Origin: a virus
Strand: one strand, 5' to 3'
DNA: 41,078 nucleotides
Virus record (IMG/VR): IMGVR_UViG_3300046520_000114
Span: 1-41,078 of that record
The position numbers and the translations under genes are program-made. Shown here in pieces: positions 14,168 through 16,187 of the stretch (position 1 is the stretch's first letter; each line of letters starts with the position of its first letter). The notes under the pieces are model-generated. The model was not told the origin of the DNA. It saw only the letters and a list, made by a program, of their open reading frames with translations, and ran no database searches.

Positions 14168-14925
14168 TCAAGCTGCTGCGTAAATCACCTGCAGCGCCGC
14201 ACCTTCCATGACCTTGATACCCTGCATTACTTCGGCGCGCCGCTTGCGCGGCACCTGCAGGGCTTCGCACGCCACCGGCAGCGCGTTGAAATCCAGGCCG
14301 GCCTGATAAGACTGCATGCCACCTGTCCAGCGCCACTGCCTCTCCATAAACAGGAACACCTCGACGATGAGCCAGTTTTCCGGCCAGACTTCGAAGTGAT
14401 TCGGCCCCTGATCCACGCCGATCCAGGCTGCAGTCTCATCTGAAGCAAGGCCCCACAGTTCGAAATCGTTCTGCGCTGCCTTGCCGTCATCCTTGCCGCC
14501 GCGCGCCCAGTACGCGGCGGCATCCTTCAGTTTTTTTCGCGGGCGCCGAAGGTGATCTCACGCATGGCGCGGTTGATACCGGCCAGGATGCTCATGCCGT
14601 GTGCGCTGCGCAGGATGTCGAGCAACGTGACGCGATTCAGCTCGATCGGATTCCTGTCCGCGTCGACGACCTGCTTCCAGCCGACCATGCGCGCCAGGAT
14701 GCGATCGGCGACGCCTTCCTTCCAGGCGTTGTCCGGCTCGTCGTGGTCGCCCGCGTCGGTTTCGTTCTGCTTGGCCTCGGCGGCGAGCGCTTCCTTCTCG
14801 TCGTCGTCCAGCAGCTTGAAGGTGCCGGTGAACTCGAACTTGTTGATCTTGCCGCCGTCGGCGGGGATATCGACCTTGACCGGCCAGTTGATGGTTTTGT
14901 CTTTCGAGGTGGAGATGATCAGCAT
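14168..14925 (-). CDS. Tail assembly chaperone G-T fusion by -1 frameshift (DUF1799)
   Basis: The second frame (14530-14168) encodes a DUF1799-like domain (HFEVWPENW, then GLDFNALP, then GIKVMEGAAL). It has no ATG or suitable start before GTG at 14416, which would cut the domain. It reads instead as the -1 extension of the upstream chaperone: join(14925..14530, 14530..14168), giving 252 residues, 132 from G and 120 from the T part. The slip site is A AAA AAC at 14536-14530. A perfect 9-bp GC hairpin follows at 14521-14495. The position between tail tube and tape measure matches lambda G/GT, where the fusion recruits the tape measure to the tail tube protein. Confidence 0.88.
14495..14536 (-). 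promoter_or_regulatory. Programmed -1 ribosomal frameshift signal
   Basis: On the minus strand the heptamer AAAAAAC (14536-14530) is in the correct frame for X XXY YYZ slippage (codons GAA AAA AAC then stop TGA). An 8-nt spacer follows, then GCCGCCGCG, a 9-nt loop and CGCGGCGGC, a perfect 9-bp stem. All three elements of a canonical -1 signal are present at standard spacing. The zero-frame stop follows directly after the slip site. Confidence 0.92.
14527..14925 (-). CDS. Tail assembly chaperone (lambda G-like)
   Basis: A 132-residue protein in the zero frame, starting at ATG 14925 with AAGGAA 8 bases upstream. The open frame extends upstream to 14976, but the extension looks non-native. The N-terminus (STSKDKTINWPVKVDIP) and the charged middle region are typical of tail assembly chaperones that bind the tape measure protein. 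Most ribosomes should stop at 14527 and make this short form. A minority shift frame at the signal that overlaps its last codons to make the longer product. Confidence 0.85.
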   Translation of the reverse strand: MLIISTSKDKTINWPVKVDIPADGGKINKFEFTGTFKLLDDDEKEALAAEAKQNETDAGDHDEPDNAWKEGVADRILARMVGWKQVVDADRNPIELNRVTLLDILRSAHGMSILAGINRAMREITFGAREKN

Positions 14926-15026: not shown

Positions 15027-16187
15027 TTACATGAAGCAGACGGTCAGCTCGTCGTTGCCGTTGAGCGGGTTGAAGGTTTGTTTGCAGGTCAGCATGGTGA
15101 CGCCGTCCTTGTCGCCGTAGGCCGGCGTCGTCAGCTGCTGCTGCGGGGCGTCGATCTTGACCTTGTTGCCTGCCGCGGTGCCGTGGGTGACGGAGAACGG
15201 TCCCAGCACCACGTTTTTCATCAGCGTCCACCAGTCCTTCGCTGCCACCGTTGTCGCCTCGAAGGTGATGGAGCCGCTCGGCTGGCGATCGGTGAGCTGC
15301 ACGCTTTCGAGCCCGCCCGGCAGCGAGCGGAACACGACCGATGCAGCCAGGTCGATGCTGAAGTCGCTGACAACGCCGTTCAGATAGCCGGAAATGTTCA
15401 GGCCGGTGGTGTTCTGGTTATTGACCGCCAGCGGCGCCGCGTACTGCGTCAGGTTCGGCTGGGGAATCGGCACGTCGGTCGGTGTGGTGTACAGGCCGGT
15501 AAAAGCGAAGCTCCACATCGGGATGCCCTGGGCACTGGCCTTCAGCGACACGGTGCCGCGCGCGCCCAGCATCAGGTGTCTGACGTTGTCGACGTTGACG
15601 TAGAACGCCACCGATTCGAAGTTGTCCGACACTGGACGGTAGACAACCTGCAGGGGCAGCGTGTAGGCAGTGGAGGCCGCGGCGGCCGTTGCCAGAGGTG
15701 CGGTGAAGGTTGCAACCTTGGTCGTACCGTTGTAGCTCGCGATTACCGCCGACTGGCCAGCGCCCGTACCGCCGGTCAGGTTGATCGTCATACCGGTGTA
15801 CGCATCGTCGACGGCCGAGGCGCCAGCGGCGAGCGTGATGCTGGCCGCACTGCCGGCGGTCGCCGCGCCCGAGAGTGCTGCCGCCAGCGTCTTCGCCGAC
15901 AGGCCGCAGGCACGCAGCAGCTCGTCGTACGCCGGCGCGGTCCCGGGGGTGCCCGAACCGGCCACCTCAATATCGAAGCTGACCTTGGCGTAGATCGCGG
16001 CGAGAACCTGCGGATTGTTCCCGAGATAGGCCTTGATGTTGTTACGTTGAACCAACGTCATTTCCATCGGGCTGACGCTGACGTTGCTCATCAGGATCGC
16101 GTCGAGCTGGGCGGTCGGTGTCGGGTCCTGGCCGTAGGTGGATTCGATCTTTGCCAGAATGGTGCGTTTGCGAGTGAGAAGCGCCAT
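15027..16187 (-). CDS. Major tail tube protein with Ig-like insertion
   Basis: A 386-residue protein that polymerises into the siphophage tail tube. The N-terminus (KRTILAKIESTYGQDPTPTAQLDAI) and the C-terminus (SITFEATTVAAKDWW, then FNPLNGNDELTVCF) fit tail tube proteins of this group. Residues about 108-182 (from SGAATAGSAASITLAAG to TAYTLP) form a separate Gly/Ala/Ser/Thr-rich module containing YTGMTINLTGGTGAGQS. It looks like a surface-displayed insertion domain. It lies upstream of G/GT, as in lambda, and has AAGGAA before the ATG. Confidence 0.85.
   Translation of the reverse strand: MALLTRKRTILAKIESTYGQDPTPTAQLDAILMSNVSVSPMEMTLVQRNNIKAYLGNNPQVLAAIYAKVSFDIEVAGSGTPGTAPAYDELLRACGLSAKTLAAALSGAATAGSAASITLAAGASAVDDAYTGMTINLTGGTGAGQSAVIASYNGTTKVATFTAPLATAAAASTAYTLPLQVVYRPVSDNFESVAFYVNVDNVRHLMLGARGTVSLKASAQGIPMWSFAFTGLYTTPTDVPIPQPNLTQYAAPLAVNNQNTTGLNISGYLNGVVSDFSIDLAASVVFRSLPGGLESVQLTDRQPSGSITFEATTVAAKDWWTLMKNVVLGPFSVTHGTAAGNKVKIDAPQQQLTTPAYGDKDGVTMLTCKQTFNPLNGNDELTVCFM

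Follow-up and report, generated by a model that had tools for sequence, protein, structure and literature searches.

The window analysed here was the whole 41,078-base virus record IMGVR_UViG_3300046520_000114, and the features listed in Table 1 lie on its minus strand. This strand carries a siphovirus tail operon consisting of neck and terminator proteins, a protein in the tube position, a chaperone, a frame with a DUF1799 domain, and a tape measure protein. The chaperone locus lies between the phrog_290 gene upstream and the phrog_7740 tape measure gene downstream, which is the lambda-type position. Judging from gene order, the phrog_290 product would be the tail tube. A DUF4214 domain was also observed near the C-terminus of the tape measure protein (residues 1825-1870).

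Table 1. Coordinates of the features at the chaperone locus and its neighbours.
Feature	Position	Strand	Evidence
Tail-tube-position protein, upstream of the chaperone	15027..16187	-	phrog_290 (label minor tail protein), E 8.6e-27
G-like tail assembly chaperone, 0-frame, 132 aa	14530..14925 (ATG 14925; stop 14529..14527)	-	phrog_569, E 3.7e-8
Slippery heptamer A_AAA_AAC (0-frame xxA AAA AAC)	14536..14530	-	sequence; relatives have AAAAAAC or GGGAAAC here
0-frame stop TGA, directly 3' of the heptamer	14529..14527	-	sequence; abuts the heptamer in 85/98 non-redundant loci
Spacer, 7 nt, stop codon included	14523..14529	-	sequence
Putative stimulatory stem-loop, 10 perfect pairs	14494..14522 (arms 14522..14513 and 14503..14494, loop 14512..14504)	-	sequence, RNAfold
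T-like -1 extension, 120 aa, starting LKDAAAYWARGG	14168..14530 (stop TGA 14170..14168)	-	open frame; phrog_680, E 1.3e-19
DUF1799 (PF08809), extension residues 44-115	14186..14401	-	E 8.7e-18, 64.8 bits against a cut-off of 26
Tape measure protein, 1985 aa	8142..14099	-	phrog_7740, E 1.2e-50

The 3' end of the chaperone frame reads ...GCC CGC GAA AAA AAC TGA, so that the ending AAA AAC TGA within A_AAA_AAC, as given in a preliminary description of this DNA, was seen. The 8-nt spacer and 9-bp stem of that description (14521..14513 with 14503..14495) were also right, and inclusion of a flanking T-A pair turns them into 7 nt and 10 bp. RNAfold added an inner G-U, giving 11 pairs and -23.2 kcal/mol. 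The window was scanned for any X_XXY_YYZ heptamer followed, 4-10 nt downstream, by a perfect stem of at least 8 bp, and this was the sole such place, a single A-run read in two overlapping registers. Dinucleotide-shuffled versions of the window yielded 0.08 heptamer-stem sites (stem of at least 9 bp) per window, and zero such sites with a strong heptamer were found in 60 shuffled windows. The slip site and stem are not expected by chance.

In the case of the chaperone half, Pfam PF08748 (Phage_TAC_4) scored 13.4 bits, below its cut-off of 21.1. The same family matched 23 of 45 homologous 0-frame partners of DUF1799 (E <= 0.01; best 1.4e-43), which suggests that the chaperone half belongs near Phage_TAC_4. 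No NCBIfam family was found for either the chaperone half or the DUF1799 half. The structure model of the chaperone half had a pLDDT of 50 and was not used.

The preliminary description had also placed a DUF1799-like domain in a 120-residue -1 frame, and this was confirmed by the PF08809 match above the curated cut-off. Among relatives, substitutions are third-position-biased from the slip onward, indicating that the -1 frame is coding from its first post-slip codons, and a conserved LxxAAxxW segment upstream likewise indicates coding selection in this frame. The slip site, the stem, and the -1 frame of the window are all conserved in relatives. These data bear on the alternative of an independent DUF1799 gene that has a start of its own, beside which the slip site would be incidental. 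One possible start, GTG 14416, is present five codons ahead of the Pfam match; some ATG, GTG, or TTG occurs between slip and domain in 69 of 98 loci, and two genes are annotated in VarioGold (PMC9658991) and in nine fetched records. However, no Shine-Dalgarno sequence was found for GTG 14416, and the relatives checked have GTC or some other non-start codon in its place. The earlier statement that the domain has no usable start codon needs a small correction, in that one possible start exists. Moreover, several of these relatives (L003, L005, L006, L007, L008, L086, and L091) contain no start at all from slip to domain, and the coding constraint on the upstream LxxAAxxW segment also speaks against a separate gene. 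A native start with a ribosome binding site in homologues, named in the preliminary description as the finding that would speak against it, was checked, and an ATG with a Shine-Dalgarno match of at least 4 nt was found in only 7 of 98 loci. In the window, a slippery site in the overlap is combined with a -1 extension lacking a conserved start of its own.

The search for start-less DUF1799 frames after slip sites, proposed earlier as an in silico check, was carried out on sampled loci. Among IMG/VR relatives, 80 loci were fetched by the extension and 11 by the chaperone, and these loci carried AAAAAAC or GGGAAAC at the junction; three loci that begin too near the junction for a long upstream frame were left unscored, the heptamer being visible in two. 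Further samples were collected by the domain only, with the junction ignored. PF08809 was searched in 399 Pseudomonadota genomes, of which 30 matched and 29 exceeded the cut-off, and AAAAAAC or GGGAAAC was located in or near the end of the overlap in 27 of the 29 newly fetched loci. The other domain-only samples came from the FEVWPEN peptide in GTDB genomes and IMG/VR and from phage records; a DNA-level search of phage records gave no match. The pooled set (IMG/VR, phages, and Pseudomonadota genomes) was thinned to 70% identity, leaving 99 non-redundant DUF1799 loci, mostly from Pseudomonadota. A canonical A_AAA_AAC or G_GGA_AAC was present at the junction in 96 of these 99 (AAAAAAC 68, GGGAAAC 28); of the remaining three, one had AAAAAAG and two had neither. 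An incidental heptamer would not persist to this extent, and the separate-gene explanation was considered very improbable.

Two exceptions deserve description. In Serratia phage Smarc4, the depositors annotate a frameshift, and no canonical X_XXY_YYZ heptamer lies at the junction. The DUF1799 frame of Microcystis phage yong1 (L097, 1115-1845) is in -1 phase, but nothing near the stop is plausible as a slip site, and this frame is possibly read by independent initiation or a non-canonical shift. Separately, in one prokaryote genome (G213:C26:258876-259264), two DUF1799 matches adjoin each other in different frames and may represent a duplicated or disrupted copy.

The recurrence of the junction also bears on the explanation that a sequencing error or a real mutation split one formerly continuous gene. 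Adjoining frames with a homopolymer at the junction, as in the window, are typical of such errors. However, this junction was met again in phages, prophages, and metagenome contigs that are independent of one another and share 30-80% identity, and this recurrence refutes a split gene. In the loci surveyed, DUF1799 appears to be reached only by frameshifting in nearly every case. What the survey adds is this link across the family; the underlying chaperone system was already known. No paper combining DUF1799 with a frameshift was found, and the family-wide rule was not found stated in the literature, which is weak evidence as the 2004 survey lay outside what was covered. That survey, by Xu et al., reportedly covered 28 genomes.

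The two heptamers specify different residues in both frames, namely K-N or G-N in the 0-frame and K-K-L or G-K-L in the -1 frame, and have tandem re-pairing in the -1 frame in common. Since they are interchangeable despite different amino acids, selection evidently maintains the capacity to slip and not the peptide. The invariant leucine after the slip arises because the C of the heptamer is followed by T and the purine of the stop. The window's GAAAAAAAC contains seven A, and transcriptional slippage on this run, instead of ribosomal slippage, could yield a fusion message. Against this, GGGAAAC, which has no long homopolymer, occupies the same place in 28 of 99 loci, and the conserved downstream stem at ribosomal spacing is a feature of ribosomal frameshifting. 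As the two heptamers are alike in the slip property alone, tandem ribosomal slippage is favoured, and a transcriptional origin of the fusion was judged to have very little probability.

A downstream stimulatory RNA structure is common, though not universal, in lambda G/GT-type chaperones, and the 10-bp stem of the window, itself under RNA-level selection, is a candidate for this role. The 5' stem arm GCCGCCGCG was identical in 19 related sequences including the window, in some of which identity over the extension is down to about one half. The 3' arm CGCGGCGGC showed silent C-to-T changes alone, in four of the 19, and silent positions outside the arms vary freely. The register of the stem differs from locus to locus in the diverse set, so that covariation at a fixed register was weak: pairing reached 54% at the true register, 51% at one of the shifted registers, and 38-43% at the rest. 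Therefore, arm-swap and synonymous-codon tests were used in place of covariation. The longest helix averaged 7.4 with the native 3' arms and 6.0 ± 0.15 after these arms were exchanged between loci, with relatedness of the loci only partly controlled. In the synonymous-codon test, codons were redrawn according to the usage of the respective phage without altering the -1 frame protein, and fold stability was compared. The query locus gave a z of -2.6, and 0 of 400 redrawn versions were as stable; for 43 loci close to the query, the mean z was -1.83 (p<0.05 in 29). Elsewhere in this frame, at eight positions, z ranged from -0.09 to -0.32, so that the excess stability occurs only beside the slip. 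Across 98 diverse loci, the value was -1.27 ± 0.15, with p<0.05 in 46 (42-nt test). By this test, about half of the diverse loci lack a significant local stem, which is therefore not a universal feature. Where present, the stem is under RNA-level selection beyond the protein constraint.

The AlphaFold model of DUF1799 (pLDDT 87) strongly matched predicted viral "tape measure chaperone" proteins of Serratia phage Scapp and Enterobacter phage F20, and weaker fold matches were obtained for the T5-like phage Shivani, for Loki, and for Caulobacter phage Colossus. The matching viral chaperones cover T1-like and T5-like phages, and several are of fusion length. A PDB fold search with the model returned nothing better than E 1.7, and PDB sequence searches with the alignments gave chance-level matches only. 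As far as predicted models indicate, the DUF1799 fold seems to connect several phage chaperone extensions.

Compared with known systems, the locus is closest in layout to lambda G/GT (PF06894 and PF06223), in which a -1 slip, a product ratio of about 30:1, and a division of labour are established (review PMC5009743). The order tail tube, chaperone, -1 extension, and tape measure (V-G-T-H) is the same, with a -1 slip site close to the 3' end of the chaperone in both. However, the lambda slip G_GGA_AAG lies upstream of the G stop, whereas the A_AAA_AAC of the window abuts its stop. As T domain, lambda and HK97 have PF06223, and the window has DUF1799; no sequence homology between DUF1799 and lambda T or HK97 T was detected (hhalign probability <1%), nor any PF06223 Pfam match. 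The match to lambda is therefore one of position, as the preliminary description said, and of mechanism, not of demonstrated ancestry. The locus can be regarded as a lambda G/GT-type system with a different T domain, an ordinary and well-built member.

In Acinetobacter phage Loki, AAAAAAC lies right beside the gp12 stop and yields the -1 fusion gp13 (PMC5313236), so that both heptamer and stop-adjacent placement are as in the window. The Loki fusion matched the DUF1799 model by fold at TMq 0.55 and E 0.42. Unlike in the window, its extension is PF23812 (Phage_TAC_18), and a profile comparison of DUF1799 with Loki T gave no signal. The pre-tape measure chaperones of Caulobacter phages phiCbK and Colossus have slip sites AAAAAAC and GGGAAAC (PMC3556154), identical to the two of DUF1799 loci, although these phages are much larger; the Colossus fusion matched the model at TMq 0.63 and E 0.75. 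The tape measure chaperones of Stenotrophomonas phage Silvanus and of Smarc4, which are distant relatives, have DUF1799-type extensions deposited as joined frameshift CDS, the latter without a canonical heptamer. GeneTack had found a tail-chaperone frameshift cluster, with 6-7% measured (PMC3711429).

Every sequence-testable part of the earlier reading, a tail chaperone joined to DUF1799 by a -1 frameshift, held. It was concluded, with a probability of roughly 95%, that the locus encodes two proteins from one start, a short chaperone and a G-DUF1799 fusion, through a programmed -1 ribosomal frameshift. For slippage itself, its frequency, and the assembly role, we infer the following. The majority of ribosomes would terminate at the TGA and release the short G-like chaperone. 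The hairpin would stall a minority with tRNA-Lys and tRNA-Asn on A_AAA_AAC, allowing a back slip of one base, after which translation of the DUF1799 frame would give a GT-like fusion of 252 residues. By analogy with lambda, the short form would coat the tape measure protein, the presumed client of both forms, and the fusion would recruit tail-tube subunits; slip efficiency would set the ratio of the two, and both would depart before tail completion. As A_AAA_AAC is reported to slip far less readily than A_AAA_AAG does in E. coli (PMC5009743), the efficiency may be low. A broader proposal is that DUF1799 can be made only through frameshifting and has a signal class of its own, an AAC-ending heptamer (weak in E. 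coli) against the stop, in which competition between termination and slippage sets the chaperone ratio, the signal being common to Loki- and phiCbK-type systems and unlike that of lambda and HK97. This proposal is tentative, and we consider it rather doubtful as a whole.

Other features were observed between the DUF1799 stop and the tape measure gene. A terminator-like hairpin of the intrinsic type, GGCCACTTCGGTGGCC CTTTTTATTT, lies at 14165-14150 (minus strand) with a tail to about 14140, after the DUF1799 stop and ahead of the tape measure gene. Terminator-like sites just past the DUF1799 stop occurred in 9 of 97 loci compared with 0.6% of random segments, and terminators are annotated at the equivalent place in Silvanus and HK97. 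The hairpin may lower tape measure expression. In YMC11/02/R656 (L101, 1894-2481), an extra gene labelled "immunity to superinfection" lies between chaperone and tape measure, and in HK97 (L228, 704-892) the moron gp15 separates the two; the gap may be a recurrent insertion site.

The two halves are currently given as separate CDS in 9 of 11 annotated phage records inspected, which bears out the wider idea that such frames are mistaken for separate genes, and as joined frameshift products in two related records (Silvanus and Smarc4). PHROGs labels both halves (phrog_569 and phrog_680) "tail length tape measure protein", and the other current label is "hypothetical". The same tape measure label was also seen on both halves in several phage records. 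The useful yield of this analysis is the family-wide association together with an annotation correction: where AAAAAAC or GGGAAAC stands against the stop of the preceding chaperone, the frames are to be joined. That nearly all loci use an AAC-ending heptamer, set against the stop, raises a testable question on how slip efficiency is set. For many Proteobacterial siphophages, DUF1799 would thus change from a domain of unknown function to the frameshift-added, T-like part of tail chaperones.
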